A model generated the notes under the pieces. It did not search any database. It was given only the letters and a program-made list of their open reading frames with translations, and had not been told where the DNA came from. The translations under genes were made by a program, and so were the position numbers. From Kitasatospora kifunensis (GTDB taxonomy: Bacteria > Actinomycetota > Actinomycetes > Streptomycetales > Streptomycetaceae), in the NCBI RefSeq assembly GCF_014203855.1, contig NZ_JACHJV010000001.1:5208001-5272000 (forward strand): a stretch of DNA of 64,000 bases, given 5' to 3'. Positions 37,795 to 55,105 of the stretch are shown here, piece by piece; the first letter of the stretch is position 1, and every line of letters starts with the position of its first letter.

Positions 37795-37982
37795 CGGCGG
37801 TGCGTCAGGTGCCGGTGGCGTCGGCCGCCCTGACTGTTCCGTAGGCTGGTGTCCGACTGACGAGAACCCGGCCGCGACACCCTGGCCGGCCGCCTATCGG
37901 GTCGGCGCCACGGGCCCCTCGCTCCGGGCCCTCGCTCCGGGTCCGAGTACCGCTTCCCAGAGACCGATTCGAGGAGAAACCG

Positions 37983-39632: not shown

Positions 39633-39649
39633 TCATCCATCAGGCATGA

Positions 39650-39689
39650 GCGCCAGGGGCCCCGGACAGCCGTCCGGGGCCCCTGGCGC
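39650..39689. terminator. Strong hairpin between pgi and the glucosaminidase gene
   Basis: GCGCCAGGGGCCCCGGAC and its exact complement form 18-base arms with the loop AGCC. It sits between convergent genes and likely terminates both. Confidence 0.88.
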
Positions 39690-39703
39690 GTTCGGTGGGG
39701 CGA

Positions 39704-42583
39704 TCAGCTTCGCGGTGCCGCGGTGGCCACCACGTCGGTCTTCGGCGCGTTCCAGCCGGAGAGGCTGACCACCGGGGTCGCGCCGTGCAGGTCGGCCGAG
39801 TCGTAGCTCGCGGTCAGCGTTTCGGACTCACCGGGCCACAGGGTGGTGTCGTTGTCGCTCCAGATCGAGGACTGCAGCTCGTTGTCGCCCGGCAGTTCGG
39901 TACCGGCGGCCGTGCCCCGGCGCAGGTCCGCCCGCAGGAAGAAGCCCACGGTCGGCTTGGACGAGGTGTTGGTGACGGTCACCGTGACCAGCTTGTTCGA
40001 ACTGTTCGGCCCGGCCTGGTCGCTGGTGGTGGCCGTGGCCGTCACCGAGGCCTGCGGCAGGTTCCGCAGGGCCTTGAGGTCGGCGTAGGAGGTCATGGTG
40101 GACTGCGGCTGGCCGATGGTCTTCGACCAGTCGACGACGTCCGGGGTGGTGGAGTTCCAGTAGACGTTGCGGTCCACCAGGGCGCCGTGCTGCTTCACCA
40201 GCAGTTCGACGAAGTACACGGTGTTCGCCGCGCTCGGCAGCTTCGGCTTCAGCACGGCGCCCGCCACCTGCTGGGAGGCGAGCGTCAGGTCGCCGGAGCT
40301 CTGGTCGTCCAGCAGCGCCCCGGCCGTGTTGTAGACCTTGGCCTCCACCGTGACGCCTGCCTGGCTCCGGCCGCCGAGGTTGTCCAGCGTCACCGCGTGG
40401 TCGTCCAGCGAGTAGAGCGCGTGCAGCGGCCGGTTGGCCTGCTGGGCGCCGAAGTACGAGCCGGCCTGGTCGCCGTCGTTGTTGTAGAGCGACCAGAGCA
40501 GGGTCGGCCAGCCCTTGTTCAGCTGCCAGTAGAAGGTGCCGGTGGAGGGGGCGGTGGCGTTGGTGGAGTGGTCGATGAACGCCTCGAACTGGGCCCTGGT
40601 GTCCTCGTAGTTCTGCACCTGGGCCTCCTCGACGTACTGGGCCAGGCTCGACCAGGCGCCGTAGCGGCTGCTGATCGCGGTGTCGAGGTTGTAGTTGGTG
40701 CCGAAGTGGTAGTCGGTGTGCGCGGTGCCCTCGTAGTTGTCGTGGTACTGGTTGGCGCCGGGCTTCTGCCAGAGTGCCGCCTGGTCGGCGGGGGAGAGGA
40801 AGCGGTTGATCGAGTCCAGCGTCGGGATGGTGTTGCCGCCGCTCTGCTCGCTGTCGAAGCCCCAGGCGCCGCCCGCGTTGGTCCGCGTCGAGTCGGTGCT
40901 GTCGTAGTGCGAGGTGTCGTACCAGTAGTTCGGTGGCACCCAGTCGTACGGGCCCTCCTTCTCGCCGGAAGTCCCCAGCTGGGGGCTCGAGTTGTACTCG
41001 GCGGAGGAGATGAACGGGCCGCCGTAGTCGGCGGCCGCGAAGCCCTTGAGGGCCAGTGCCTCCTGGGTGGCGGTCGGTGCGTTGTCGCTCCACTGGAAGC
41101 TGAAGACGCTCGGGTGGTCGCGCAGCGTCTGGCCGATCGTCTGCGCGGTCAGCTGGTAGAGCGACTGCTGGGCACCGGTGTAGCTGGTGGCCTCCCAGAA
41201 GTCGCAGCACTGGAAGCCCGCGTTGACCAGGATGCCGGCCGCGTCCATCTGCTGGTACCAGTCGGCCGGCATGAAGTGGCCTTCCAGCCGGACGGTGTTG
41301 ACGCCCATCGCCTTCAGCAGGCCGATCTGCTTCGCGGTGTCCGCCGGGTCGTAGCGCAGGAACAGGTCCGGGTCCCAGCCGCCGCCGCGGATCACCAGCG
41401 GGGTGCCGTTGATCTTGAACGCCCGCACCCCGGCGGGCGCGGCGCTCGATGCGCCGGTCAGATAGGAGTCGACGGTGCGGATGCCGAAGGTCTCGCTGGT
41501 CGAGTTCAGCGTGCTGCCGTGCTGCGCTACCGCGGTGGCCAGCGTGTAGAGCGGCTGGGCGCCCAACTGGTAGGGCCACCAGACCTGCGGCTTCGAGAGG
41601 GTGATCGGCGCGAAGCTCACCGTGCTGGTGGAGCCGGCCGCCACCGTGACGTCCTGGTGCACCGTGATCGGGGCGCCGCCGCCGGGCGGGGTGACGCTCG
41701 CGCTCACCGTGCCGCTCTGTGCGCTCGACGAGGTGTTGGCGACGTCCGTCTTCACGGTCAGCGTCGAACTGCTCAGGTCGGCGGCGGTGTTCTGGACGAC
41801 ATGGGCGTTGCCGTCGACCAGGGGGGCTCCGCTCTGCAGCTGGACCGGGAACTGGATGCCGGTGTTGTTGTCCGGCGGGATCTGCGACCAGTCCACGTCG
41901 TCCACGGTGAGCATGGTGTTCGGGTTGTTCGGATGCACCTCGATCGCCAGCGAGTTGGTGCCGGCGCGCAGCAGCTTGCCGATGTCGAAGGCGGTGCGGG
42001 CGTAGCCGCCGGTGGCGGCGGTGGCCACCTCGGTGCCGTTCACCCAGACGTCGGCCGCGCCGATCACGCCGTTCAGCACCAGCTGCGCGCCCGCTGCGGC
42101 AGGTGGGGCGGTGAAGTCGGTGCGGTACCACCAGGGCACCGAGAACTGCTTGATGGTCTCCGGGCCGACCGCGGTCAGCTGGCCGAAGCAGCTCTTCATC
42201 GTGGTCGAGCTGAAGACGTTCGGGCAACTGCCGTTCTGCAGGAGGGCGTTGATCTCTGTCCCGGGGGCGCCGCCGCCGTCGTTGGCGACGCTGAGCCAAC
42301 CGGCGGTGTTGAAGCCCGCGGTGGAGATCCGGCTGCCGGACTGGGTGGCGGTGGCGCTGCTGAGCACCTTCCAGCCGCCGCCGGCACCGAGGTCGGTCAG
42401 CGCGCTGGAGCCGGTGGCCGGGTCGGGGAACCTGGTGGCGGTTGCCGCGGCGGGGTTCGCCGCGGTGGGGGTCGTCGCGGCGGGGGCGGCGCTGGTCGGG
42501 CGGATGGTCAGGGCGAGCAGGCCCAGCGCGGCGGCGGCGGTCGCCAGTGCGCGTCTCGGGGGCGCCGTTCTCGGGGGTGCCAT
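39704..42583 (-). CDS. csxA: Secreted exo-beta-D-glucosaminidase, glycoside hydrolase family 2 (CsxA-like)
   Basis: The 959-residue protein has a Tat/Sec-like signal (ARRALATAAAALGLLALT region), then the GH2 sandwich, Ig-like and TIM-barrel domains and two C-terminal Ig-like domains. The acid is Asp in FQWSDNAPTAT (about 500), not the usual Asn-Glu pair, and the nucleophile is Glu in GFDSEQSGGN (about 579). Both features, with PYDWVPPNYWY, are those of exo-beta-glucosaminidases that release glucosamine from chitosan ends. It was not possible to test specificity. An 18-base palindrome overlaps its leader. Confidence 0.9.
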   Translation of the reverse strand: MAPPRTAPPRRALATAAAALGLLALTIRPTSAAPAATTPTAANPAAATATRFPDPATGSSALTDLGAGGGWKVLSSATATQSGSRISTAGFNTAGWLSVANDGGGAPGTEINALLQNGSCPNVFSSTTMKSCFGQLTAVGPETIKQFSVPWWYRTDFTAPPAAAGAQLVLNGVIGAADVWVNGTEVATAATGGYARTAFDIGKLLRAGTNSLAIEVHPNNPNTMLTVDDVDWSQIPPDNNTGIQFPVQLQSGAPLVDGNAHVVQNTAADLSSSTLTVKTDVANTSSSAQSGTVSASVTPPGGGAPITVHQDVTVAAGSTSTVSFAPITLSKPQVWWPYQLGAQPLYTLATAVAQHGSTLNSTSETFGIRTVDSYLTGASSAAPAGVRAFKINGTPLVIRGGGWDPDLFLRYDPADTAKQIGLLKAMGVNTVRLEGHFMPADWYQQMDAAGILVNAGFQCCDFWEATSYTGAQQSLYQLTAQTIGQTLRDHPSVFSFQWSDNAPTATQEALALKGFAAADYGGPFISSAEYNSSPQLGTSGEKEGPYDWVPPNYWYDTSHYDSTDSTRTNAGGAWGFDSEQSGGNTIPTLDSINRFLSPADQAALWQKPGANQYHDNYEGTAHTDYHFGTNYNLDTAISSRYGAWSSLAQYVEEAQVQNYEDTRAQFEAFIDHSTNATAPSTGTFYWQLNKGWPTLLWSLYNNDGDQAGSYFGAQQANRPLHALYSLDDHAVTLDNLGGRSQAGVTVEAKVYNTAGALLDDQSSGDLTLASQQVAGAVLKPKLPSAANTVYFVELLVKQHGALVDRNVYWNSTTPDVVDWSKTIGQPQSTMTSYADLKALRNLPQASVTATATTSDQAGPNSSNKLVTVTVTNTSSKPTVGFFLRADLRRGTAAGTELPGDNELQSSIWSDNDTTLWPGESETLTASYDSADLHGATPVVSLSGWNAPKTDVVATAAPRS

Positions 42584-42595
42584 GGCGAGCTCCTA

Positions 42596-42613
42596 TAAAG
42601 TTAGGAAACTTTA
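42596..42613. promoter_or_regulatory. Palindromic operator candidate upstream of the glucosaminidase gene
   Basis: TAAAGTT-AGGA-AACTTTA has perfect 7-base arms and lies immediately upstream of the ribosome-binding site AGGAGCT. Its AGGAAA core resembles sites I recall for ROK-family repressors of chitosan-degrading genes in Streptomyces (CsnR); this link is from memory and not checked. Confidence 0.65.
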
Positions 42614-42709
42614 CTTACGGCACCAGGCAAGGTACTGGCCGCGTGCGGCGGGGGTCAACGGGTCTGCGTGGTTCCGCGCGCGCGGAAAGGGGGAGGCGGA
42701 GGCGGGAAC

Positions 42710-42745
42710 GCCGAAGGCCCCTCGCTCTCGCGAGGGGCCTTCGGC
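42710..42745 (-). terminator. Hairpin terminator downstream of tRNA-Lys copy 4
   Basis: GCCGAAGGCCCCTCG and CGAGGGGCCTTCGGC form 15-base perfect arms around a six-base loop, eight bases beyond the tRNA 3' end. Confidence 0.8.
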
Positions 42746-42752
42746 TGTCTGT

Positions 42753-42825
42753 GCGCCGCCAGGGACTCGAACCCCGGACCCGCTGATTAAGAGTCAGCTG
42801 CTCTAACCAACTGAGCTAGCGGCGC
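42753..42825 (-). tRNA. tRNA-Lys (anticodon CTT), copy 4
   Basis: The 73 bases are identical to the other three copies. The -10-like box is TACAGT, 16 bases upstream on the minus strand (42841-42846). It is followed by a 15-bp hairpin. Confidence 0.97.
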
Positions 42826-42855
42826 CTGCTGACAGAGAAGACTGTAGCAGCGGGC

Positions 42856-43512
42856 TCAGGCGGAGCCAAAATCGAATACCGCCAGGGGCGCGCCCTTGGC
42901 AGCGTCCTTACCTGAAGGCCGTGGGTAGATGGTGGTCGGCCCGGACCCCTGCCCGCCCGTGCCCCCGAGGCCTTCCTGCGGAGCCTGGGCCACTCCCCGG
43001 GCCGCCCGCACGCAGGCCCAGAGCAGCACCCCGGCGCTCGGCAGCCAGGGCTCGCTGGTGTCCGGAGCGACGATCCAGCGCCCGATCGGCGCACCGGGAG
43101 CGGTCGGCTGGTCGGGCGCCCGCCGCACCGGCGGCACGGTGACCGCATCGCCCAGCCCGTGGCAGAGCAGCGGTGGCACGTCCCGGGCCCACTCCTCCCA
43201 AGCGAGCAGCGTGCGCAGTCGGGGCGCCGCACCGGGCTGGACGAACAGCTGGGTGCGCCCGCGATACTCGGCCACCGGTCCACAACCCGGGCCCGAGGAC
43301 CACAGTTCGTCCAGCACCCGACGGCCGAACAGAGCCGGCAGGCTGATCACGTCAAAGGCCCGGCCACAGGGCAGCACGGTCGGCGCCCAGGGCCGGGCCT
43401 CCCACAGCGCCCGCAGGCTGCTCGGGTACTCGCTGGCCGAGGCCAACCAGGCCTCGCCCGCCACGGTGAGGTGCGCCACGGATTGCTCTGAGTGCTCTGT
43501 CCAGATATCCAC
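42856..43512 (-). CDS. Prim-pol N-terminal-like protein
   Basis: The 218-residue protein has segments typical of streptomycete proteins named bifunctional DNA primase/polymerase: VLPCGRAFDVISLPALFGRR, GPVAEYRGRTQLFVQPG and RWIVAPDTSEPWLP. It has only the prim-pol-like fold and no helicase domain, and the metal-binding acidic residues of active prim-pols are not evident, so it may not be a polymerase. GTG is the start. It shares its layout with the 133-residue protein at 51.5 kb. True function unknown. Confidence 0.7.
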   Translation of the reverse strand: MDIWTEHSEQSVAHLTVAGEAWLASASEYPSSLRALWEARPWAPTVLPCGRAFDVISLPALFGRRVLDELWSSGPGCGPVAEYRGRTQLFVQPGAAPRLRTLLAWEEWARDVPPLLCHGLGDAVTVPPVRRAPDQPTAPGAPIGRWIVAPDTSEPWLPSAGVLLWACVRAARGVAQAPQEGLGGTGGQGSGPTTIYPRPSGKDAAKGAPLAVFDFGSA

Positions 43513-43647
43513 GCGCAGTAGGCTGCGCCGAATCGCCGTGAGGTCGCAGCGAAAGTCCGATTCGCCGGACAGGGCAGGGGCGGGCGGCGTAGGCTTCCCC
43601 GCCGCATATGCCAGTGGCCCAGCCAGTCCCTGGGACCGGGGCTCGGC

Positions 43648-43995
43648 TCAGCTGTCGCCGGCCTCGCGCGGGCGCAGCAGGCCGCGGCCGTACTCGACCA
43701 TCCGGGCCGCGTAGTCCGCCGTCCAGTCCGCCCGGGCCGCCACCTCGGCCGGCGTCAGCGCGTCGAACCGGCGCGGATCGGCCAGCTGCGCGGCCGCGAT
43801 GGCCTGGAAGTCGGTGGCCCGCTCGGCCGCCGCCCGGAAGGCGAGCGCCAACTCGGTCGAGCGGCGCAGCAGTTCCGCCGGGTCCTCGATGCTCTCGAGC
43901 TGGAAGAACCGCTCCGGCTCGGCGACCAGGGCATCGGGCTCGAAGAGCAGCGGAGCCGGCCGCAGGCGGCGCGGCGGGTCTTGGCGATCGGGCAT
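43648..43995 (-). CDS. Conserved hypothetical protein, helical
   Basis: The 115-residue protein has a short basic start (MPDRQDPPRRLRPAP) and then mostly Ala-rich amphipathic helices, for example LLRRSTELALAFRAAAERAT and DWTADYAARMVEYGRGLLRP. No family is recognised. The frame is open to 44073 but the ATG at 43995 starts the protein-like part. It lies between the prim-pol-like gene and the 3' end of the helicase operon, on the same strand as both. Confidence 0.55.
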   Translation of the reverse strand: MPDRQDPPRRLRPAPLLFEPDALVAEPERFFQLESIEDPAELLRRSTELALAFRAAAERATDFQAIAAAQLADPRRFDALTPAEVAARADWTADYAARMVEYGRGLLRPREAGDS

Positions 43996-44186
43996 GCGAG
44001 GGCACCTTTGATGACGGGGACCGGCAGCGTCGCCGGTCGGCGGGTGGCCGTCGTCCATTCGGCCGTCGTCCATTGTCGCTCGTGCCCCACCCCGGACGGA
44101 ACGGTGCCAAGGCAGGCGCTCCAGCGGATACCGCGCCGGGGGGCGCGCGGCCGGGCCTTTTACTGGTTGGCGGACCCTCTTACCAG

Positions 44187-44255
44187 TCGGTTTGTCGGTC
44201 GACTGTCGGTCGGTTTGTCGGTTGGCTATAGGTCGGCTTGTCGGTCGGCGCAGCT
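44187..44255 (+). repeat. Three iteron-like 23-bp direct repeats
   Basis: TCGGTTTGTCGGT occurs at 44187-44199 and 44210-44222, and TCGGCTTGTCGGT at 44233-44245; the 13-base cores are spaced exactly 23 bases apart with variable 10-base tails. They lie just beyond the stop of the helicase gene at 44269. Period and structure recall iterons, but no replication gene is adjacent. Confidence 0.75.
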
Positions 44256-44268
44256 CCTCGGGCTGCGG

Positions 44269-45765
44269 TCACAGGCGGATCCGGTGCTCGGCGAGGTGCT
44301 GCAACACCCGGTAGTTGGCCTCCCAACCGTCCGGGAAGTGGGCGCCGACCCGCTCCAGCAGTGGGATCAGCTGGCCGCCGATCTTCTCCTCCCAACCGGG
44401 CGGGATCCGTACCGCGCTGCCCAGCTGCACCGGCTCGGTGGCCGGATGCTCGTCCAGCAGTTCGGCGATACCGGCCCTGGCCACCACGATGCAGGCGTGC
44501 CGGTGGCGCGAGGCGAGCACGCAGAGCCGACCGGTCTCCAGGTGGAAGGCGGTGGCGTCCGGGCGTCCGGAGAGCGGGTGCAGCACCACCGTGACGTCGT
44601 ACTCGCGGCCCTGCAGCCGGTTCGCGGTGTCCACGCTCACGGCCGGTCCCAGCGCGGGGTCCACCGGGACGCCGAGCGCGCCGAGCGCGGCCCGCACGGC
44701 CGCGGCCTGGTCGCGGTGCGCGGTGCCGACCGCGATCCGCCCGGCCGTCAGCGGCACCCGGCCCTGCTCGGAGCTGGCCATCAGGCCCCGGTCCAGCAGC
44801 CGGCGCACGGTCGCCGCGACCGCCGCCACCGCCTGCGGATCGGTGCGCACGGTGCGTCGGGCCGGCAGTTCGAGCAGTGACCAGCCGTGCTCGGCCGCCT
44901 CGTCGATCGTCGCGTCCACCGCGCTGCCGTCGGCCCGCTCGCGGGGGATCAGCAGCCGGTCGCCGGGCCCGGTCCCCGAGCGGAACGGCGTGTACGGGTA
45001 GAACGCCTGCGAGATCAGCGGCGCCGCCGAGGCCGGCAGCCGCCAGGAGACCGGCAGCCGCTTCGGCGTGATCGCCGGGTTGTGCGCGAGCAGGGTGACC
45101 ACCGCGCTGCTCGACGGGTCGTAGGACAGTCCGGTCCACTGCTCGGTGCCGACCACCGTGAAGGGGTCGAGCTGGCCGGGATCGCCGACGAACAACGCCC
45201 GTTCGAAGAGCCGGGCGACGGCCAGCAGCGCGTCCGAGCGCATCTGGTACGCCTCGTCCACGATCGCGTGCCGCCAGGGCTCGACGTCCTTGACCCACTG
45301 CCACTTGGCCGCGGTGGAGACCACCACGTCCAGCTCCAGCAGGTCGCTCGGCTTGCTGCTCGCCGTCACGTTCGGGTGCCGCAGCGCCTCGGCGGCCGGG
45401 CGGGCCTCCCCGCTGTGCAGTCGGCCGATCGTCAGATCCGGCCCCTTGGCCGCCAACCGGTCGACCAGGTCGTCCACCTGACTGTTCGTCTGGGCCACGA
45501 TCATCAGTCGCTCGCCGGCCGCGACCAGTTCGCGGGCCGCCTTGACCACCAGCGTCGACTTGCCGGCGCCGGGCGGCGAGTCCACCACCACGCCGCGCGG
45601 CGCGCCCGGGGCCGGGCGGACGGTGGCGTCCAGGATCGCCGCGACGGCGGCATCGGCGGCTGCGGCCCGGTCGGCTGCCGGGTCAGCTGCCGTGGCGGCT
45701 GCTGGGTCGACGGGGTCTGCGGGGTCGGCAGGGCTGGGCGTCAGGAGGGTCACGGTGTTGTTCAT
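44269..45765 (-). CDS. SF1B (Upf1/Dna2-like) DNA helicase
   Basis: The 498-residue helicase shows Walker A SPPGAGKST (63-71), motif Ia in MIVAQTNSQVDDLVDRL, Walker B VDEAYQ (169-174), motif III GDPGQLDP (194-201), motif IV VSWRLP (238-243), motif V DTANRLQGREYDV (378-390) and motif VI LASRHRHA (416-423). No nuclease domain is attached. The ATG at 45765 follows GGAGGAG and overlaps the previous stop (ATGA). It is the third gene of a coupled operon with a Cas4/RecB-like nuclease, so the three probably act as one DNA-processing complex. Confidence 0.88.
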   Translation of the reverse strand: MNNTVTLLTPSPADPADPVDPAAATAADPAADRAAAADAAVAAILDATVRPAPGAPRGVVVDSPPGAGKSTLVVKAARELVAAGERLMIVAQTNSQVDDLVDRLAAKGPDLTIGRLHSGEARPAAEALRHPNVTASSKPSDLLELDVVVSTAAKWQWVKDVEPWRHAIVDEAYQMRSDALLAVARLFERALFVGDPGQLDPFTVVGTEQWTGLSYDPSSSAVVTLLAHNPAITPKRLPVSWRLPASAAPLISQAFYPYTPFRSGTGPGDRLLIPRERADGSAVDATIDEAAEHGWSLLELPARRTVRTDPQAVAAVAATVRRLLDRGLMASSEQGRVPLTAGRIAVGTAHRDQAAAVRAALGALGVPVDPALGPAVSVDTANRLQGREYDVTVVLHPLSGRPDATAFHLETGRLCVLASRHRHACIVVARAGIAELLDEHPATEPVQLGSAVRIPPGWEEKIGGQLIPLLERVGAHFPDGWEANYRVLQHLAEHRIRL

Positions 45766-47444
45766 GCCCACTCCTCCACTCCGGAAGTCGAACTCCGGGC
45801 GGCCGACGGCGGACCACCGTGTGTCCACGGAGTGTCGTCGGGCTCGGGCAGCGGGGCGGATTGACGGGGTGTCAGCTCGAAGAGCGTGAACGTCACCCTC
45901 TGCCCGGGCTCGGGCACGCTGCCCGGCTCGGGTTCCTTGCGGCGCCCCATCCCGCTCAGCACCCGCAGCGTGACCAGGCCGGCCGCCGCGTCGTACGCCA
46001 CCACTTCGGCCTTCTGCGCGGCCGGGGACTTCTCCTCCGCCGTGGCCTGCCGCGCCGCCGGCGCGCGGTGCACCTCCCGGCCCGGGTCGGCGTGCGGGCG
46101 GTCGGCGGTGCGCACCGTCAACAGCGGGCGCGGCTTGGGGGAGCGGCCCGTGGTGTCGTAGTCCGGCACCACCTCGACCACCACACCGCTGAACGCCTCG
46201 CCGGCCAGCCGCCGTTCGGCCATCGCCAACGGATCGTCCAGCGCCTCCTGCACCGCGACCCGCACCTGCTCGCGCTCGCGCTGGGCGAGCTTGCGGGCCG
46301 CCGTCACCGCGTCGTCCACCCGCGGCTGGGGCGGCTCGCCCGTGGCCAGGCGGTCCCGGTGGCCGGTGAAGGACCAGCGGTCGCTCTCCCAGCGCTCGGC
46401 GACGTGCCCGCCCGGTGGCAGGGTCCGCAGCAGGTCGAGCCCGCGCCAGACGTCCTGCCAGGTGGGCAACAGGACGGCGAGCAGCAGGCGGCGCAGCTCG
46501 GCGACGCTGTGCCGCACGGCGGCCTCGGCCTCGCGGACCCGCGCTCGGTCGCCGGTGTCCCCGGCTGTGCCTTGCTGAGCATAGGCCTGGTCATGGGCCT
46601 GGTCATGGGCATGGGCATGGGCCTGGCGCAGCGCGGCCACGGTCGCGTCGTACCGGCTGATCGCCGGGGCCAGCAGCTTCTCGTCGAACCGCGGATCGGT
46701 GGCCGGTCCGGCGGGCGGGTGCAGCAGTTGGCCCTGCGCGTCCCGAGCGGTCTCGGCCAGTTCGGCCGCCTCGGCACCGGTGCGCCCGGGCGGTGGCGTG
46801 TGCCAGGCCAACTGGGCGGCCAACTGCTGGTCCTCCAACTGGCTCTGGCCGGTCGCCCAGTGCCGGGACAGCAGGCTCGTCATCGGCAGCAGCAGGCTGG
46901 CGCCCGGCACCTGGGCGCGCTCGGTGAGGTGGGTCAGCCAGCGGCCCAGCAGCGGCACCCGGGCCGGCGCCGGGTACGGCCCCGGGTCCGGATCCTCGGC
47001 CGTGCGGCGGAACCGGGTGGCCCGCCCGAGCAGCGCCAGATGCCGCACCGAGCCGACGCCGGGCACGATCAGCTGCGGCGCGTCGGCGCACAGCTCGCGG
47101 GTGATCAGGGTCTTCTCGCCGGTGGCCGGGTCCTTTTCGGAGCCCTCGAGCAACTCGACCGCCTCGGCGTAGGACTCCAGGTACGGCAGCAACTCGTCGG
47201 CCAGGGCGGCCAGGAACTCGGCCCGACGGTCCCGGTTGAGCGGTTGCGGCACGATGTGCAGCCGGGGCTCGGCGCGGTCGGTGCCGAGCAGCACGGCCAA
47301 CGGCGCGCCGTCCTCCGCGGCGGTGGCCAGCGGGATCAGCACCATCGGGCGGTCCGAGAGGTGCCGGTGCCGCACGGTGGCCAGCGGCTCGGCGCGGCCG
47401 CTGCGGATCGCCTCCAGCCGGGCCAGTGTGGTCAGCAGGCTCAC
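45762..47444 (-). CDS. Unknown 560-residue subunit of the nuclease-helicase operon
   Basis: I recognise no family. The N-terminal third (ARLEAIRSGRAEPLATVRHR, then TEDGAPLAVLLGTDRAEPRL) looks globular alpha/beta. The middle contains a helical region with a His/Asp/Gln-rich repeat (AHAHDQAHDQAYAQ, about residue 285) and DLLRTLPPGGHVAERWESDR. The C terminus (RVLSGMGRRKEPEPGSVPEP) is beta-rich with a low-complexity end. It starts at GTG overlapping the nuclease stop and ends overlapping the helicase start, so it is made in step with both. A scaffold or regulatory subunit is inferred from position only. Confidence 0.75.
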   Translation of the reverse strand: MSLLTTLARLEAIRSGRAEPLATVRHRHLSDRPMVLIPLATAAEDGAPLAVLLGTDRAEPRLHIVPQPLNRDRRAEFLAALADELLPYLESYAEAVELLEGSEKDPATGEKTLITRELCADAPQLIVPGVGSVRHLALLGRATRFRRTAEDPDPGPYPAPARVPLLGRWLTHLTERAQVPGASLLLPMTSLLSRHWATGQSQLEDQQLAAQLAWHTPPPGRTGAEAAELAETARDAQGQLLHPPAGPATDPRFDEKLLAPAISRYDATVAALRQAHAHAHDQAHDQAYAQQGTAGDTGDRARVREAEAAVRHSVAELRRLLLAVLLPTWQDVWRGLDLLRTLPPGGHVAERWESDRWSFTGHRDRLATGEPPQPRVDDAVTAARKLAQREREQVRVAVQEALDDPLAMAERRLAGEAFSGVVVEVVPDYDTTGRSPKPRPLLTVRTADRPHADPGREVHRAPAARQATAEEKSPAAQKAEVVAYDAAAGLVTLRVLSGMGRRKEPEPGSVPEPGQRVTFTLFELTPRQSAPLPEPDDTPWTHGGPPSAARSSTSGVEEWA

Positions 47445-48697
47445 CCGGTCACCGCCAGGGCTTCGGTCCCGTCTTCGCTCCCGAGTGGGCCGTCCGTGAC
47501 CAGGGGCGCTCCGCCCAGCGCCTCGGCGCGCAGCGCGGCGGCGTACCGCAGGCGCTCGGCCGCCTCGTCGGCGTCCCCGCCGTCAGCGCCCGTTGCGGCG
47601 CCCGGGCAGGCCGCCGCCAGCACGCCGTCCACCGTCCGCAGGTCGCCCAGGTCTGCCCGCACCCCGCGCCCCAACTGCTCGACCGCACCGGCGGCCCGCG
47701 CCTGTGCTCGGCAGTGGAACCCCAACTCGCAGGCCGACAGGCACTCTGGTCCGTAGGCGGCCGGCACGGTGTCCACCGCGGTGGCCAACTCCGCCACTGG
47801 CCTGGTCGGTTGGCCCGCGTCATCCGGTGCGAGGTCGAAGCTGGTGCCGGCCGGCAGGGCGTCCAGCAGCTCCTCGATCCGGGTCATCCGGGCCAGCTGG
47901 CGCCGGGTGGTGGCCAGTTCGCGCCGGACGTCGATCGCCGCGGCCACCGGTGTCTGCCCGAAGTCCTTGGGGCAGACCAGCAGGACCACGGGATCCGGGG
48001 CGCCGGGCCGCCGCTCGGCCGGCGGATCCTGCGCGGCGGGCCCGGAGCGTTCGTCCTGCTCGGCCGCCTGTTGCAGCGCCAGCACGTAGACCGCCGCCTG
48101 TCGGGCGGCCGCGCCGACCTTCGCGGGATCGGCCGAACCGTCCAGCACCGGGAAGGACTTGATCTCGACCACGGTGCACCGCCCGCCGTGCACCAGCACC
48201 GCGTCCGGCTCCAGGTAGGCGGGCGCGCCGGCCACCGTGAGCCGCAGCATCGGGTGGTCGAGCAGCGTCCAGCACCCCGGGTCGGCCAGCGAGGCGCTGA
48301 CCGCCTCGGCCAGCGCCTGGCTGGTGCGCGCCGCCCGCACCGCCGGACCGGAGCGCACCAGCAGGTCGGGGGTGCTCAGGCGCCGGCCGTCGTCCGCGGG
48401 CAGACCGAGGTGCTGGCGCAGCGGGGTCAGCAGCGCGGCGCAGCCGTCGGCCTTCAGCCGGGCTTCGAAGACGGTGCCGCGGGCGATCGCGAAGGGTGAG
48501 CGGCCGAACGGCGCGGGGCGGCCGAGCCGGCCCGCCACGGCGCCCTTGTCCACCCCGGCGGCATCCAGCAGGGCCCGGCGCCGGCAGCCGGGGTTGGCCG
48601 CCAGCGCGGCCAGGGCCCGGGCGTCCAGCCCGCGCTGCTCGGCCGCGCCGCGCAGCGCGGCCAGCCGCGGACCGTGATCGGAGAGCGAGACGTTCAT
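47441..48697 (-). CDS. RecB/Cas4-like PD-(D/E)XK nuclease with predicted Fe-S cluster
   Basis: The 418-residue protein shows the RecB nuclease motifs: Glu79 in RGTVFEARL, Asp165 in LEPDAVLV, Glu178-Ile-Lys180 in VVEIKSF, and Gln200-x3-Tyr204 in AARQAAVYVLAL. Cys319, Cys323 and Cys329 (PECLSACELGFHCR) with a distant Cys38 match the four-cysteine Fe-S arrangement of Cas4, AddB and Dna2. It should be a single-strand DNA nuclease. It is the first gene of the operon and is coupled by GTGA overlap to the unknown subunit. ATG at 48697 is chosen; 17 more codons are open. Confidence 0.82.
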   Translation of the reverse strand: MNVSLSDHGPRLAALRGAAEQRGLDARALAALAANPGCRRRALLDAAGVDKGAVAGRLGRPAPFGRSPFAIARGTVFEARLKADGCAALLTPLRQHLGLPADDGRRLSTPDLLVRSGPAVRAARTSQALAEAVSASLADPGCWTLLDHPMLRLTVAGAPAYLEPDAVLVHGGRCTVVEIKSFPVLDGSADPAKVGAAARQAAVYVLALQQAAEQDERSGPAAQDPPAERRPGAPDPVVLLVCPKDFGQTPVAAAIDVRRELATTRRQLARMTRIEELLDALPAGTSFDLAPDDAGQPTRPVAELATAVDTVPAAYGPECLSACELGFHCRAQARAAGAVEQLGRGVRADLGDLRTVDGVLAAACPGAATGADGGDADEAAERLRYAAALRAEALGGAPLVTDGPLGSEDGTEALAVTG

Positions 48698-48916
48698 GGT
48701 GCTCGCCAGTCTTGCACCCGTCACCGACAACCCCGGCGCCGCCACCACCTCGCGGCCCGGCGCCCGCCTTGGAGGGTCCGCCGGCAGGGGCTGGTGGACC
48801 CTCTCGCGCAGCCTCGGAAGGCCGCTGCGGCAGGGGCTACCCGGCGGTAACCGACGGGTAGGGAATCATGGCAGTGCACCTACCGTTGCACTGCACCCAG
48901 CCCTCAGGAGTCCGTG

Positions 48917-49567
48917 ATGCCCGCTCGTCTGATCCTCGTCCGCCACGGTGAGACCGCCTGGTCGGCGAGCGGCCAGCACACCGGTCGGACCGACATCCCG
49001 CTCACCGAGGAGGGCCGCCAGATGGCCCGCGCCGTCGGTGCCCGGCTGCGCCGCGCGCCCTGGTCCGGGCTGCCGGATGCCGTCGTCTACACCAGCCCGC
49101 TCTCCCGCGCCAGGGAGACCTGCGAGCTGGCCGGCTTCGGCGACCGCGCGGTGGACCGGCCCGAGCTGCTCGAGTGGGACTACGGCGCCTACGAGGGCCG
49201 CACCGGGGCCGAGATCCGGGAGCACGACCACCCGGGCTGGCTGATCTGGCGCGACGGCGTGCCGCAGGGCGAGAAGCTGGCGGACGTCGGCGCTCGGGCC
49301 GACTCCTTCATCGCCCAGCTCGAACAGGACCACGGCGCCCCGCACCCCGAGACCACCACCATGCACTGCGCCGACCGCGACGTGCTGGTCTTCGCGCACG
49401 GCCACCTGCTGCGGATCCTGGCCGCCCGTTGGCTCGGCCAGGCACCGGAGTTCGGCCAGCGGCTCAAGCTCGGCACGGCGGCGCTCTCGGTGCTCTCCTG
49501 GGAGTACGGCCTGCCCGCGATCGAGATCTGGAACGACCACAGCCACCTGGACACGCTGACCGCCTGA
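48917..49567 (+). CDS. Histidine phosphatase (phosphoglycerate-mutase-like) family protein
   Basis: The 216-residue enzyme opens [20 protein letters not shown] with the RHG motif (His10), has [15 protein letters not shown], acidic Glu in [16 protein letters not shown], and the second histidine in [15 protein letters not shown]. These make an active phosphohistidine-intermediate phosphatase; the substrate may be a sugar phosphate or nucleotide. ATG follows CAGGAG. It is divergent from the nuclease-helicase operon across a 219-base gap. Confidence 0.92.
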
Positions 49568-49634
49568 GCCGGGCCGCTCCTGGGGGCGGCCCTCCCGGAA
49601 CCGGCTGCCCTGCAACCGGTCGGCTGGGCCCCCG

Positions 49635-51041
49635 TCAGGCCGCCGCGCTGTCGAACCCGGTCAGGAACTCCCCGACCTCGCGCACCCCTTGGAAGGGTCG
49701 CAGCCGCTCGGCCGTGTCCGCGAGCATGCCGCGGATCCGCGCCGAGCGGACCTCACCGAGCAGGGCGACCGCCGCGCTGCCGTGCTCGGCGGCGCCGGCC
49801 AGATCGCCCCGGCCGAGCCGGTCGTGGGCCAACTCGGCGGTGTACAGGGCCCGGTTGCGCACGAAGTGCGGCTCCTGCAGCGCTATGGCCAGCCCGGCCC
49901 GCTCGCTGGCCCGGTCCCACTCGCCCAGCGCCGACCAGCACTGCGCCTCCAGGCCGGCGATCTCGGCCTCGCCGTAGAAGGACATCCACTCCGGGTCGGA
50001 CTCGCACTCGCCGCGCTCGAAGAGCGTGTACGCCCGGGCCAACGCCCGCTCGCAGGACGCCCGGTCGCGCAACAGCGCCCAGCCGCCCGCCTCGCGCATC
50101 ACCAGCAGCGAGAGCAGCCGGTCGGAGTCCAGGTGGCGGGCGGCGCTCTGGCCGGCCTGGGCGGCCCGCAGCGCCTCGCGCGGCCGCCCGGCGTCCCGGG
50201 CCAGGAAGGCGCTGTTGCAGAAGACGTGGGCTTCCAGAGCCGCGTCATTGGCCATCCGGGCGGTGGCCAGCGCCTCGGCGTAGAACGAGCGAGCATCGGC
50301 CAACCGCTGCGAGTCGTGCGCCAGCCAGCCCACCGAGATGGCCAGTTCGCCGGCCGTGGACTGCAGCCGACGCTCGGTGGTGAGGGTGTACTCGCCCTCG
50401 TTGAGCAGCACGTACGCCTGCCGCAACGACTGCCCGGCCTGCTCGAACAGGGTGTCGGCGCCGTGCTCGTCGTCGGCCAACCGGATCTCCCGGACGGCCT
50501 GTTCGACGATCTGGACGTCGGCTCCGCCGACTCTGCGCAGCGTGGGCAGGGGCTGCGGCGGCAGACCGGGCAGCGGCAGTGCGGCGGGCGTGGCGGCCGC
50601 CCGGGCAGGCGCATCGAGGCCGAGCACGGCGGCCAGGGCGGTCGGACCGCCACTCAGGAACGTACGGCGTTGCACGTCGTCGTTCTCCTCGTCGGGATGG
50701 TGCGGGGAGAGTCGGGGGGCGAACGGCTGGGCCGGCACGAACCCGGCGGCCGGGCGGCCGCGCACGGCCGTCCTGGGGGAGAAGCCGAGGTCCTGCAGTG
50801 AGCGGCCCGGCCAGATATGGCGGAACACCCGCTCGTACGCGTAGTTGGGACAGCGGATCGCGCCGGCCTCGACCCGTCCGATGTACCGGGCGTCGCACGA
50901 CACGTGCTCGCCGATCTCCCGTGCGGCGCGGCGGATCACGGTGGCGAACTCCGCGGGGGAGAGGTCGCCGCGCAACTCACGCATCGCGGTGTTCGGCCTG
51001 GGCGTGGCGGTTGAGGCGGAGGCGGCGGTTGTGGGGGTCAT
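49635..51041 (-). CDS. XRE-like regulator with TPR repeats (NsdA-like)
   Basis: The 468-residue protein has an N-terminal HTH-like region of XRE type (FATVIRRAAREIGEHVSCDA and RYIGRVEAGAIRCPNYAYER) followed by an Ala/Pro-rich linker with a short RRTFLSGG motif. About 300 residues of TPR-like helical repeats follow (ADARSFYAEALATARMANDA, GRPREALRAAQAGQSAARHL). This architecture is that of the NsdA family of streptomycete regulators of sporulation and antibiotic production. It is divergent from the small prim-pol-like gene over a 477-base AT-richer gap. Confidence 0.82.
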   Translation of the reverse strand: MTPTTAASASTATPRPNTAMRELRGDLSPAEFATVIRRAAREIGEHVSCDARYIGRVEAGAIRCPNYAYERVFRHIWPGRSLQDLGFSPRTAVRGRPAAGFVPAQPFAPRLSPHHPDEENDDVQRRTFLSGGPTALAAVLGLDAPARAAATPAALPLPGLPPQPLPTLRRVGGADVQIVEQAVREIRLADDEHGADTLFEQAGQSLRQAYVLLNEGEYTLTTERRLQSTAGELAISVGWLAHDSQRLADARSFYAEALATARMANDAALEAHVFCNSAFLARDAGRPREALRAAQAGQSAARHLDSDRLLSLLVMREAGGWALLRDRASCERALARAYTLFERGECESDPEWMSFYGEAEIAGLEAQCWSALGEWDRASERAGLAIALQEPHFVRNRALYTAELAHDRLGRGDLAGAAEHGSAAVALLGEVRSARIRGMLADTAERLRPFQGVREVGEFLTGFDSAAA

Positions 51042-51518
51042 GGTGCGCTCCGGGGCGAGACGGTGCTAGGGGCGCCGTCCGGTGCGGGGCGGGCGGCTGG
51101 GCCTCGATGGACCGAAGCGGCCCGGTGAGGCATGGCTGGACAGTACCCGCTGTCATCAAGTGATCACGATGGGTTCCCGGGAAAATAACCACTATTCAGT
51201 GGCAAATCCGACATATCTCAAGAGTTCTGCCATGAAATGCCATGGCTTGCTGTAAGAAGCCCCGTGGCCAAGAGGGGCTCGAAACCGTTGTGTTGATATC
51301 GGGCGGGCCGCCAGGGGGTTCGGTCTCCCGACGTATCACCCATCCATCGCTCAGCTTCAGTAGCCATTCATACCATCAGTTCACTTCTCTCACTGACGGC
51401 CACTCAGTCTTCCTTGCACAAGAGGGAGTTCGGCGGCAGCCGGTCGAACGTGGGGGAAAGCGGACGTGGAAAGCGGATGTGAGCGGCGCGGGGAGCGTAC
51501 CGAACCAGGAGGGCCCAC
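51042..51518. other. Divergent regulatory region, AT-richer than its surroundings
   Basis: The 477 bases between the NsdA-like gene and the gene at 51519 include a stretch (about 51160-51400) clearly lower in GC than the rest of the window, with runs such as GGGAAAATAACCACTATTC. No gene, RNA or strong hairpin was recognised. It probably holds the promoters and operator sites of both divergent genes. Confidence 0.5.
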
Positions 51519-51920
51519 ATGATGGTCACCGGGATGCCGCAGTTCCACACCTTCCTCACCGGGCAGTTGCCACGCAAACGGGAGGTCGGGCAGCGCTGCG
51601 ACACGGTCATCGCGCCGCTGCGGCTCGGCCTGGAGACGCTCGACATCCTGCGGCTGCGCCGGGCCTGCGGCTCGGTCGCCCAGGGCGCCGGTGGGGCCAG
51701 CGTCAGCTTCCTGGTGCCGGCCGGCACCGCCGATCTGTGGCACCTGCCCGGCACCTCCTGTCTGCCCGGCGCCATGCCACTGACCCCCACGGACCCGCGT
51801 TGGCTGGTGGCGCCCGCCGGTGCCGAGTCCGCCGTGGCCCCCACCGACCCCTGGGTGCTGCGCTCGGCACTCTGCGAGGCCGTTCGCACCCTCAATGCGA
51901 GCGGCCTCGGTCCGTTCTGA
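51519..51920 (+). CDS. Small prim-pol-like conserved hypothetical protein
   Basis: The 133-residue protein has RCDTVIAPLRLGLETLDILR, GGASVSFLVPAGTADLWHLP and RWLVAPAGAE followed by DPWVLRSALCEAVRTLNASG. The order of these blocks matches the 218-residue prim-pol-like protein at 42.9 kb, which suggests a shared fold. No catalytic residues are evident. An AGGAGGG site precedes the ATG. It is divergent from the NsdA-like regulator. Confidence 0.7.
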   Translation: MMVTGMPQFHTFLTGQLPRKREVGQRCDTVIAPLRLGLETLDILRLRRACGSVAQGAGGASVSFLVPAGTADLWHLPGTSCLPGAMPLTPTDPRWLVAPAGAESAVAPTDPWVLRSALCEAVRTLNASGLGPF

Positions 51921-52067
51921 GTCGTCCCATCCCCCTGGCCCCCGCTTCCTGCCCCTCCCCTGCTCCTCTCCCCGGCCCTCCCTCCCCGGCCCTCCCTCCT
52001 CGGCTCTTCCTCAGGGGATCGCCTCCCACCTGCGCGTTCGTCCGGCGGTCGAGAGATACTTCGCTCC

Positions 52068-52970
52068 ATGGGACGAGAGCAACGAGCCCCCCGCAAGCGT
52101 TCGACCACTCCCGAGGAGCCCACCGCCACGGGACCTCGTTCACGCCGTACCGAGTTCGGCCTGGCCGAGCTCATCCCCGACCGTGACCACCCGCAGGCCT
52201 GGTCACTGCTGCTGGACGGTGCACCGCAGTCGCACGTCGACCTCGCCGACCCCACCCGGCTCGCCTTCGAGTACCAGCGGCGGCTCGGTCACCTGGTGGA
52301 CCTGGCCGCAGCGCCCGGCAAGCCGATCCGGGTGCTGCACCTGGGCGGTGGCGCGCTGACCCTGGCCCGCTATACCGCCGCCACCCGCCCACGCTCGCGG
52401 CAGCAGGTCGCTGAGCTGGACACCACGCTCACCGAGTGGATCCGGGCCGAACTCCCCACCCCGTCCAGCTGGCAGATCAAGGTCCGCGGCGGTGACGCCC
52501 GGGCCGTGTTGGAACGTGCGCCCGAGGCCGGCGCCGACCTGGTGATCGCCGACGTCTTCTCCGGTGCCAGGGTCCCCGCGCACTGCACCACGGTGGAGTT
52601 CGCCACCCTCGCCGCCCGCGCCCTTGCGCCCGGCGGTCGCTACGCCGTCAACATCGCGGACGGTGCCACGCTGGCCTTCGCCCGCTGCCAGGTCGCCACC
52701 CTGCTCGCGGTCTTCCCCGAGGTGGCGCTGATCGCCGACCCGGCGGTGCTGCGCGGCAAGCGGTTCGGCAACCTGATCCTGGTCGCCGCTCACACGCCGC
52801 TGCCGATCGCCGAGTTGGCCCGCCGTACGGCCACCGACCCCACCCTCGCCCGGCTTGAGCACGGGCGCGAACTCGCCGCCTTCACCGGTGGCGCCCCGGT
52901 GGCCACCGACGCCTCGGCCGCGCCGTCCCCGGCGCCGCCGCCGAACACCTTCAAACACGTGGGTCGTTGA
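52068..52970 (+). CDS. Spermidine synthase-like methyltransferase-fold protein
   Basis: The 300-residue protein has the Rossmann methyltransferase core with VLHLGGGALTLARYTAATRP as motif I and DLVIADVFSGARVPAHCTTV as the polyamine-synthase catalytic loop. The usual GGGDG aminopropyltransferase signature is changed to GGGAL, so the reaction may differ from spermidine synthesis. The first 30 residues and the C terminus (Ala/Pro-rich) are disordered. It stands alone, 147 bases after the small prim-pol-like gene. Confidence 0.85.
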   Translation: MGREQRAPRKRSTTPEEPTATGPRSRRTEFGLAELIPDRDHPQAWSLLLDGAPQSHVDLADPTRLAFEYQRRLGHLVDLAAAPGKPIRVLHLGGGALTLARYTAATRPRSRQQVAELDTTLTEWIRAELPTPSSWQIKVRGGDARAVLERAPEAGADLVIADVFSGARVPAHCTTVEFATLAARALAPGGRYAVNIADGATLAFARCQVATLLAVFPEVALIADPAVLRGKRFGNLILVAAHTPLPIAELARRTATDPTLARLEHGRELAAFTGGAPVATDASAAPSPAPPPNTFKHVGR

Positions 52971-53060
52971 GCAGGGCGGCTGCCTGACTGGCGGCCACCG
53001 CCGCCACGTACGCGGGACCTTGGGCGCCGCAGTGGTCAACCGTGGCCTGCGCCAAGGCGA

Positions 53061-54263
53061 TCAGTGGCCGCGCGGCAGTCCGCGGTGCTTGTACATCGCC
53101 GCCCCCGTGAGCAACAGTCCGGCGGCGATCGGGATCAGCACCGCGTCCTGTGATCCGGTCGCCGCGAGCGGCTCGGCGGAGGCGGTGCCGCCCTCGGCCG
53201 CGGACCGGCCGGGGGCGCTCGGCCCGGTCCCGCCCGACTTCGGGGCGCCGGTCCCCGTCAGTCCGCTCGCCGCGTTCGGCCCGCCGACGGCGCCGACCCG
53301 CCCACCGTCCCGCGAGGCCGTGAGCTCCACCGTGTGCGCGCTGACCGCGAGCCCCGACAGGCCATCGGCCGACGGAATTACCGCGCGGCCGCCCGCGGCG
53401 CCCGCGCCCCGCGCGTCAGTGCCGCCGTTCCAGCCGTCCGCGGTGCTTCCTTGCCCCCGGGCCGTCGCCCCGTCCCCCGGTAGCCCGCCCCCGGGCGGCA
53501 ACGGCAGGTGGGAGAGTCGATCACCCTGCCCGCTCGCCCCGCCGGGCGATGCTCCTTGCGCGTCACCGGTGCTCGACCGTGCGTCCTGCGGGGAGCGGCC
53601 CTGCTGCGGACCGGACGGCAGCAGCACAGTCGCGATCGCGAACGCGTCGGGCACCGCCGTCGCCTGGCCGGGTAGCGGCAGGTCACCGGCCCGGATCCGG
53701 TTGTGCAGCAGCTGGTTGACGCTCCCGGTGCCGGTCGCCGCGCCGGCTGCGGCGTTCGTGGCCGTGCCGGTCGCAGCGCCGAGCCCGGTCGAGCCGAGGA
53801 CGCCCGAGCCGCTCGGCTCGACCGCCTCCGCGGCGCCGGGCGCTCGGATCGGCGTGGACCCGTCGGTGAGCCCGGCCGGTGGTGCTCCCGAGCCGCCGCC
53901 CGAGCCGCCGCCCGATCCGGTGCCCGTTCCCGGTTCGCCGGGCGCCAGTGCGTCAGCGGTTCGCCGTCCGCCGCTGGGTGGGTACGCACTGACCGGCTCG
54001 ACCGCCTGGGTCGGTGCCGCGATCGAGCCGACGGCCGCGGCAGGCCCGATGCCGAAACCCAGTCCGATCCCCCAGGCCTGCGCCACGAGCACCACCCAGC
54101 CGCCTGCCCAGGCGCGTGGACGCGATCGCCGTTCCCCCCGTCCCCCGCGCTGCGTCGGCTGGGCCGCCGTTGCCGACCGTGAGGCGGGCGATGGCTCGGG
54201 CGCGGGGAACGGCTGATTGGCTCGCACGTGAGAGGAGAACGAGCCCGACTGCCGAGAGGTCAC
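53061..54263 (-). CDS. LAXTG sortase-anchored, low-complexity surface protein
   Basis: The 400-residue protein has a basic start, one hydrophobic segment (WAGGWVVLVAQAWGIGLGFG, a signal peptide), a long Gly/Ala/Ser/Pro-rich body, and a C-terminal sorting signal: LAATG (366-370), a hydrophobic helix (AVLIPIAAGLLLTGAAMY) and a basic tail. LAXTG is the form recognised by class E sortases in streptomycetes. No sortase gene lies nearby. The middle has one plausible folded patch (NQLLHNRIRAGDLPLPGQAT). Biological role unknown; cell-surface display is well supported. Confidence 0.75.
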   Translation of the reverse strand: MTSRQSGSFSSHVRANQPFPAPEPSPASRSATAAQPTQRGGRGERRSRPRAWAGGWVVLVAQAWGIGLGFGIGPAAAVGSIAAPTQAVEPVSAYPPSGGRRTADALAPGEPGTGTGSGGGSGGGSGAPPAGLTDGSTPIRAPGAAEAVEPSGSGVLGSTGLGAATGTATNAAAGAATGTGSVNQLLHNRIRAGDLPLPGQATAVPDAFAIATVLLPSGPQQGRSPQDARSSTGDAQGASPGGASGQGDRLSHLPLPPGGGLPGDGATARGQGSTADGWNGGTDARGAGAAGGRAVIPSADGLSGLAVSAHTVELTASRDGGRVGAVGGPNAASGLTGTGAPKSGGTGPSAPGRSAAEGGTASAEPLAATGSQDAVLIPIAAGLLLTGAAMYKHRGLPRGH

Positions 54264-54455
54264 GCGGAAGGCTGACGCCTAGGCGGCTGAACTTGTCGGC
54301 GGGGTCGATTTCCGGCCGATCTGACGTCAAGTCAGCCGACGGGGGCGCGCCGCCGCGTGTGGTGGGTCTCGGTAGGCCGAGGCCGCCCGGCGGCTGTGCC
54401 CGCCCGAGTGTCTGCCTTGGATGCCCGCCTCGGGTGTCCGAGTGCCCTGGGTGGG

Positions 54456-54911
54456 TCAGGAGTTGGGGCGCAGCGTCCAGAGCACGCTCATCTCGCCGGT
54501 CACCGCGCCGTCCGCGCGGGTGATCTCGACCGCGACCGGGAACTCCGGGCGCTGGCCCGCATCCAGCTCCGCGATGATCTCCGCGATCGGACGCCCCAGC
54601 GTCGCGGTCGCGGTCACCTCGCCCATCGCCAGCTTCCGGTAGGCGATCTCCGCGCTGACCGCGAGCGGCACGGCCCGCGAGAGCTGGTCACCGAAGGCCG
54701 CCAGCACGATGCACCCGCTGGCCGACTCGCCCAGCGTGAACATCGCGCCGGCGTGCGGCCCGCCCACGTGGTTGTGGTAATCCGGCTGGTCGGGCAGCCG
54801 CAGCACGGCCCGCTCGGGGGTCGTCTCCAGGTACTCCAGGTTCAGCGTCCGGGCCATCGGGACGGTGGAGGCAAGCAGCTGGCCGATCGAGGGTGTCGTC
54901 ATGGCGGTCAT
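54456..54911 (-). CDS. Hotdog-fold thioesterase (PaaI/DUF4442-like)
   Basis: The 151-residue protein has the hotdog core with NHVGGPHAGAMFTLGESASG as the central helix and AEIAYRKLAMGEVTATATLG as the following strands. Such proteins hydrolyse acyl-CoA thioesters, for example aromatic or fatty acyl-CoA, as dimers or tetramers. Start is ATG at 54911; a second ATG at MTTPSIGQL is possible. No pathway neighbour is present. Confidence 0.85.
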   Translation of the reverse strand: MTAMTTPSIGQLLASTVPMARTLNLEYLETTPERAVLRLPDQPDYHNHVGGPHAGAMFTLGESASGCIVLAAFGDQLSRAVPLAVSAEIAYRKLAMGEVTATATLGRPIAEIIAELDAGQRPEFPVAVEITRADGAVTGEMSVLWTLRPNS

Positions 54912-55062
54912 GTTACTTGCCGGTAGCCTGTGGCGGCAGGGGAGATCGGCGAGAGTTTCCGCTCACTCGGCTCAGGGCACGGCCGGCCGCACTGCGCCCT
55001 GAGTTGCGCCCCGGGTTGTGCCCTGCGGGGGCTCGGGTCCGGGTCTGACTCCGGAAACGACT

Positions 55063-55096: not shown

Positions 55097-55105
55097 AACT
55101 ACTGG

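Follow-up and report, generated by a model that had tools for sequence, protein, structure and literature searches.

In eukaryotes, Mre11-Rad50 is partnered by Dna2, and in archaea by HerA-NurA. Dna2 combines a RecB-type nuclease and a helicase of superfamily 1B (SF1B) in one chain; the excerpt consulted of its structural description places between them a barrel on a stalk of two long helices, strikingly like Ighmbp2 (PMC4716839). Another source, in the part consulted, describes for AddB and DNA2 a lone cysteine that precedes the other three by a few hundred residues (PMC7311471). Here, a three-gene operon (A-B-C) of Kitasatospora kifunensis is compared with these systems. It lies in a stretch of 64,000 nucleotides (the window), forward-strand positions 5208001-5272000 in a genome of 9.57 Mb. 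On balance, the evidence leans modestly towards A-B-C being a single Dna2-like end-processing machine distributed over three chains, with a core copy serving damage-inducible repair and relatives bearing an additional gene, D, serving in defence. The operon is not described in the literature searched, as judged by titles and the beginnings of abstracts, and neither Dna2 nor RecB appears in the excerpts consulted of three papers (PMC12839542, PMC10853773, PMC3702460). The locus comprises the following features:

47441..48697, minus strand: gene A, 418 aa, ATG at 48697; predicted PD-(D/E)XK nuclease of the RecB/Cas4/Dna2 type with Cys38, Cys319, Cys323 and Cys329
45762..47444, minus strand: gene B, 560 aa, GTG at 47444; no sequence family; predicted long helices at residues 251-289 and 297-340
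Residues ~412-523 of gene B product: C-terminal barrel in the predicted model
44269..45765, minus strand: gene C, 498 aa, ATG at 45765; putative SF1B helicase core of the Dna2/Ighmbp2/Upf1 kind, without a barrel domain
48708..48730, minus strand: recA-type DNA-damage promoter motif, TTGTCGGTG-N9-A-N3-T, ending 10 nucleotides (nt) 5' of the gene A ATG

The three proteins of the operon

The A/B junction is a GTGA overlap and the B/C junction an ATGA overlap (4 nt each), and inspection of the open reading frames bore out the coordinates, starts and stops of the original prediction, which had been made from the window sequence and had described three minus-strand genes overlapping by four bases. 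Most core loci (65 of 75) offer an in-frame start for C at exactly 4 nt ahead of the stop of B.

Protein A has no match among the family models of Pfam, NCBIfam and PADLOC (E ≤ 1). Nine residues (C38, D165, E178, K180, Q200, Y204, C319, C323 and C329) are identical in all 95 core-lineage A proteins, and C38 with C319, C323 and C329 is present in 155 of 155 distinct A proteins, accessory copies included. A structural model built from 52 sequences (predicted local distance difference test, pLDDT, 77.9; predicted template modeling score, pTM, 0.73) was compared with known structures by VIA-align. The highest scores belong to Cas4 (Z 10.6 over 204 residues, root-mean-square deviation [rmsd] 4.7), type I-C Cas4 (9.5) and EXO5 (9.0), and further matches include lambda-exonuclease-like proteins, AddAB, MGME1, RecB, AdnA (7.7), Dna2 (7.0; 205 residues, rmsd 4.7) and ACE1 (7.0); in Foldseek, MGME1 is best (E 1e-4). 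Cas4, EXO5, AdnA, Dna2 and ACE1 carry Fe-S clusters. The alignments with these five proteins extend to residues 332-368 of A, beyond Cys319-329, and those with lambda exonuclease, MGME1 and RecB stop at residues 270-285; alignments with RecE and one putative exonuclease also reach residue ~350. Profile matches of A to designed helical-repeat proteins in the PDB cover only ~30 N-terminal residues and were discarded. Together, model and residues support a nuclease fold of the RecB/Cas4/Dna2 type with a four-cysteine set, in agreement with the RecB-type motifs and the Cas4/AddB/Dna2-like cysteines originally predicted.

Protein C matches the Pfam models AAA_11, AAA_30 and AAA_19 over their cut-offs, with AAA_12 just under, and contains the SF1 motifs; Pfam reveals no nuclease domain in it, and no UvrD model at E ≤ 1. 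Matches in PADLOC are weak and concern general helicase models, e.g., MkoA. Against the PDB, its profile finds Ighmbp2 (E 3e-11), mouse DNA2 (positions 34-401 of 452, E 1.3e-10) and Upf1. The catalytic positions are invariant in 154 of 154 proteins, a set that includes the Rhodococcus helicase of locus L185 (see below), except Ser70 (149 Ser, 5 Thr). These data support a Dna2/Upf1-type helicase, and motifs and Pfam matches alike confirm the predicted third protein with all SF1B helicase motifs and no nuclease. The Walker A motif starts at residue 66, and even earlier in accessory copies, compared with residue 208 for the same point in Ighmbp2; C therefore has no room for a preceding barrel of the Ighmbp2 type.

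Protein B had been put in no recognised family, and at E ≤ 1 it indeed matches nothing in Pfam, NCBIfam, PADLOC or PHROGs. Its model is middling (58 sequences, pLDDT 70.7, pTM 0.57) and shows two long helices and a C-terminal barrel. In VIA-align, the barrel matches Ighmbp2 (4b3g, Z 8.8, rmsd 2.3 over 84 residues; 4b3f, Z 9.3 with an rmsd of 12.2), SETX (Z 9.0, rmsd 2.9 over 88) and Sen1 (Z 8.7). Topoisomerase I and efflux adaptor matches of B were set aside as long-helix matches, with bad rmsd or a single helix pair. No member of TIGR00376 scores over the cut-off in 60 genomes, and therefore no bacterial barrel-bearing relative is at hand for a sequence test of B. The comparison is suggestive, with moderate support, of a C-terminal barrel most like the Ighmbp2-type helicase barrel that is absent from C. 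Because this barrel resembles the one between the nuclease and helicase of Dna2, A-B-C may follow the Dna2 domain order of nuclease, barrel and helicase. The original prediction had seen Dna2 split into two chains plus an added subunit: the split of nuclease and helicase stands, and B may, on this moderate resemblance, be a Dna2-like part rather than an addition.

The core copy and its promoter motif

A scan with A confirmed at least 271 relatives, and the best 80, mostly from Streptomyces and Kitasatospora, were kept. Gene order and strand of A-B-C agree in 96 of 100 loci, the remaining four being truncated by the locus end; conservation of the gene order, whose absence outside this strain would have counted against the original prediction, thus extends well beyond the strain. 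Gene B was found in 36 of 36 genomes of the same genus (own genome aside), in 38 of 39 other genomes of the family (here, Streptomycetaceae) in the class sample, and in 70 of the 394 genomes of the whole sample. Gene C was found in 197 of 200 family genomes (E ≤ 1e-60), an upper bound for the core copy because accessory copies are counted too. The window copy occupies one fixed chromosomal site, with upstream histidine-phosphatase and regulator genes in 78 of 78 long core loci. The median ratio of nonsynonymous to synonymous substitution rates is 0.21 for A (966 pairs), 0.19 for B (1486 pairs) and 0.14 for C (1507 pairs), from non-independent pairs of 84-99% identity; to judge from these ratios, all three genes are under purifying selection. 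Because order and strand are kept and these ratios are low, the grouping is more than chance. Downstream of C on the same strand, 72 of 78 core loci have a small gene of ~115 aa (window 43648-44073, minus strand), the median distance from C being 225 nt.

In mycobacteria, the type of promoter found before A belongs to PafBC. The sequence TTGTCGGTGACGGGTGCAAGACT at 48708-48730 (minus strand) is the sole match to the pattern in the window, where 0.02 are expected. The UV-inducible S. rimosus recA promoter, given as TTGTCAGTGGCN6TAGggT in the excerpt consulted (PMC2375139), is similar. TTGTCRGTG occurs exactly and in the same place before A in 67 of 84 core loci; 16 of the other 17 have a version with 1-3 mismatches there, and L036 has none. 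In 2.57 Mb (both strands of loci L021-L100), the pattern occurs 61 times, equal to the number of those loci that bear the motif before A. The own genome contains 26 matches, vs. 3 for the reversed control, among them one 8 nt before RecA, one 6 nt before UvrB and one 6 nt before an Lhr-like helicase. The motif also ends 6 nt before the GTG of six TnpB/OrfB_IS605-like genes of the own genome (L277, L278, L279, L282, L283 and L285) and lies at or within 6 nt of three more (L280, L281 and L284), their identity being based on Pfam runs on L277, L280 and L281; IS605-type transposon genes may thus be damage-inducible in this genome.

Accessory D-A-B-C copies

Besides the window copy, the own genome harbors a second A-B-C (locus L103, 5991-9990). 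A gene of 285 aa, D, lies in front of it, and cas3, cse1 and cse2 come after it. D is absent from core loci; its profile has matches in 24 class genomes and 33 family genomes (of 394 each), weak and broken ones counted, and its PDB profile search gave nothing usable. The accessory A, B and D proteins match nothing in PADLOC (E ≤ 1) or NCBIfam. Neighborhoods were compared over ~8 kb on each side of 42 D-bearing loci: 30 from family genomes with a full-length D, 10 picked from other families and 2 on plasmids. Genome G754 has two D copies, one of them among the 42; further D-bearing genomes outside this set (G082 and several of family f19) have flanks of only ~5 kb. Each neighbor family was identified from a single example by hmmscan and then widened through BLAST clusters.

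The order D-A-B-C on one strand is found in 41 of the 42 loci. The remaining one, L207 (8001-10926, D-forward orientation), has a D homologue (42%) without A, B and C that overlaps a 720-aa gene with no Pfam match; D may have another partner there. SbcD occurs in 19 of 42 loci, always upstream and divergent and always with an SbcC match (one pair is broken). A DinG and PD-(D/E)XK pair of the pPIWI-RE kind adjoins nine loci, and Wadjet-type genes occur in nine: DUF2397, which we take to be a Wadjet component, in six, and Wadjet type I in three. Other neighbors are a ResIII gene (5), an SMC-like ATPase (2), PD-Lambda-1 (2), PDC-S37 (1) and Cas3 with Cse1 (2; a 33% Cas3 match without Cse1 in L223 was left out of the count). 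At least one defence or SbcCD neighbor is present in 34 of the 42 loci (family 27/30, other families 5/10, plasmids 2/2) and none in 8. Core loci L001-L100 (nearly without flanks in L001-L020) returned no match to the SbcCD, Wadjet, Cas and DUF2397 queries. The proposed co-occurrence with defence islands is thereby seen at many D-bearing loci and not at these core loci, and of the repair or anti-phage role originally considered possible, the window copy, core and with a damage motif, falls on the repair side, many of its D-bearing relatives having defence neighbors.

Evolutionary distances of SbcD track those of A, B, C and D (Spearman 0.88-0.92, n = 18, reached in 0 of 2000 permutations), as they would for SbcCD and D-A-B-C traveling as one unit, with shared host ancestry adding to the correlation. 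Relatives of B were not found in viral contigs, nor relatives of C in phage records; 48 plasmid records match C. Four of these were opened: two from Streptomyces, both with JetA-B-C-D directly 3' of C, one from Rhodococcus and one from Nonomuraea without annotation. The Rhodococcus opacus plasmid pROB01 (L185, 4032-9134) encodes a C-like helicase, 34% identical, in a different gene set, alongside an AAA ATPase and a VWA-like protein, and similar helicases occur on 26 Rhodococcus plasmids. D-A-B-C lies within ~25 kb of a chromosome end in L205 (G754) and L216 (G399), and in G754 at both ends; chromosome ends are the usual place of accessory genes in linear Streptomyces chromosomes. The damage-type motif precedes JetA in L187 (~13340) and L216 (~15214), and the ResIII gene of a type III restriction-like pair 3' of D-A-B-C in L195, L197 and L199 (~12980) and in L214 (~11511), all in D-forward orientation.

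In 12 of the 155 distinct A proteins, K180R occurs together with D165Q/E or E178L/A, the four cysteines being kept; in L158, E178 is lost, alone of these residues. Loss of motif residues in homologues, another ground for doubting the original prediction, is thus confined to accessory copies and one f19 copy, the core lineage being intact (95/95). The 12 (L191, L193-L199, L202, L211, L213 and L214) form one clade in an A+B+C tree; all nine loci that have the DinG/nuclease pair are among them, and no SbcD locus (of 19) is. Helicase residues are intact in the 11 with a full-length C, that of L211 being frameshifted. Cutting by A has probably been lost in this clade, with motor and cysteines retained. 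In the tree (70 sets, midpoint-rooted, the root not being secured), the core lineage is one D-less clade; D is also missing from f3 loci L104, L105 and L108 and from f20 loci L153, L155, L156 and L161, and the most distant member, L222, carries D and SbcCD. Under the midpoint root, the simplest reading is three losses of D from an ancestor with SbcCD and D-A-B-C. A fuller history can be offered tentatively, and we hold it to be somewhat improbable as a whole: an undescribed actinobacterial split Dna2, of which Streptomycetaceae domesticated an ancestral SbcCD and D-A-B-C defence form, leaving a D-less repair system inducible by damage, and of which one accessory branch lost its nuclease activity, as if cutting had passed to the neighboring pPIWI-RE-type DinG/nuclease pair.

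Proposed mechanism and comparison with known systems

In the proposed machine, C would act as an SF1B-type motor that threads single-stranded DNA, by analogy in the 5'->3' direction. B would contribute a barrel and stalk layer between motor and nuclease, plus its family-specific N-terminal part, and A would cut the threaded strand, its fold pinned by a putative Fe-S cluster on Cys38/319/323/329. For the core copy, DNA damage would induce A-B-C, which would process ends or flaps beside AdnAB; in accessory copies, SbcCD and D would recognise or open the DNA ends that Wadjet, Cas3 or restriction leaves behind, from which A-B-C would degrade onward.

Several observations weigh against this reading. 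The Dna2 match of A (Z 7.0) scores below those of Cas4 and falls inside the range that the tool calls common. For B, PDB sequence profiles gave nothing usable with the whole protein or the barrel alone, leaving the barrel with no sequence support, and Foldseek gave nothing at E ≤ 0.001; unrelated barrels follow closely behind its helicase matches (Z 8.7-9.3), ribosomal uL3 reaching 8.5 and reductase-type barrels 7.8, and these matches exceed only a little the best Z of 7-8 typical of models without a clear match. Both long helices of B precede the barrel, so its topology may not be that of the Dna2 barrel and stalk. An in-frame A/B overlap of 4 nt is limited to 15 of 77 core loci. The commonest A/B overlap is 10 nt, in a comparison whose start codons were chosen close to the preceding stop, a choice that favors short overlaps. 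Family f39 has A-B without an adjacent C, which is still in the genome at ~37 and ~49 kb from A-B (2/2 genomes). A damage motif is not the same as induction, and the inducibility of the core copy is read from that motif; it is absent in its exact form from 21 non-core A-B-C loci, and its six exact occurrences in the 42 accessory loci (~2 expected at the genome-wide rate) stand before JetA (2) and the ResIII gene (4), never before D or A. According to the excerpt consulted of a study on S. venezuelae, conservation of the mycobacterial PafBC motif was not apparent from a first search (PMC9380542). Finally, of the six DUF2397 matches, four reach no more than 25-27% identity, and defence or SbcCD neighbors are lacking at 5 of 5 f19 D-bearing loci and 3 of 30 family loci.

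Alternatively, the chief role of the window copy could be defence against phages or plasmids, as a system since fixed in the family, with a promoter that merely ties it to phage-caused damage. The defence genes beside 34 of 42 D-bearing relatives, two of them on plasmids next to Wadjet, would agree with this, and a damage-type promoter suits defence too, as its exact occurrences before JetA and ResIII genes illustrate; however, a fixed site in 78 of 78 loci, presence in 197 of 200 genomes and the lack of a defence match in L001-L100 are unlike accessory defence, and we regard this explanation as unlikely. Action of the operon on RNA-containing substrates appears more improbable still. Ighmbp2 and Upf1 stand beside DNA2 among the best PDB profiles of C, the barrel of B is nearest to Ighmbp2, SETX and Sen1, and DinG/nuclease genes adjoin nine accessory copies, action on R-loops being proposed for pPIWI-RE systems in the part consulted of one source (PMC3702460); the fold of A, by contrast, groups with DNA nucleases, and the neighboring SbcCD and Wadjet act on DNA. 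That A is a Cas4-type helper in CRISPR adaptation, with B-C assisting, is very improbable, although Cas4 heads the structural matches of A and two of the 42 accessory loci abut cas3-cse1: the other 40 have no Cas3-Cse1 neighbor, and window positions 36000-56000 contain no CRISPR-like repeats, in line with the absence of an array originally noted, cas1 and cas2 not having been searched for.

If the Dna2-like reading is right, nearly every genome of the Streptomyces family would contain a damage-inducible machine of this kind, whose nuclease and middle subunit are unnamed by the family libraries searched here. Such a machine would be a further route of end processing next to AdnAB and SbcCD, would join genome repair with plasmid and phage defence, and would provide a natural three-piece Dna2 for probing the roles of the barrel and the Fe-S cluster.

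Like AdnAB, AddAB and RecBCD, the operon pairs a helicase with a RecB-family nuclease, and the nuclease domain of AdnA is among the structural matches of A. Unlike in these complexes, C has no UvrD-type (SF1A) Pfam match and the nuclease is a separate chain; AdnAB itself is probably represented by two long PDDEXK_1 proteins ~3 kb apart elsewhere in the own genome. The early judgment that the operon is none of these three complexes holds, and no known complex was matched. In the TM0106 family (TIGR03491), too, a RecB-like nuclease is part of long frames (mostly 898-1772 aa among the matches over the cut-off), and the aligned profile of these proteins matches the helicase profile of C. The family is, however, single-chain, A has no TIGR03491 match (NCBIfam, E ≤ 1), and members were not found in the own genome or in three other family genomes; the profile comparison, which is weak because several frames are truncated, gave no signal for A, B or D. 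With Cas4 of CRISPR-Cas systems, A shares the predicted fold (Z 10.6 and 9.5) and the four cysteines, and unlike the defence systems listed in PADLOC, A, B and D match no model at E ≤ 1. The position of the promoter motif, close before the start codon of A, is like that in the recA-type DNA-damage regulon of Streptomyces. With end resection linked to Mre11-Rad50, 19 of the 42 accessory loci have in common the SbcCD genes that lie divergently 5' of D; the helicase and nuclease families differ from HerA-NurA, and core loci have no SbcCD match. With eukaryotic Dna2, the operon shares a RecB-type nuclease in which a lone cysteine lies far N-terminal to the other three, as well as an SF1B helicase from the same branch; a barrel between them is possible in B. 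In contrast to Dna2, no OB (oligonucleotide/oligosaccharide-binding) domain is seen in A, neither D nor the N-terminal half of B has a counterpart, and A and C are separate genes in relatives too. The operon is accordingly likened to Dna2 and not counted as a member, because it consists of three chains where Dna2 is one.

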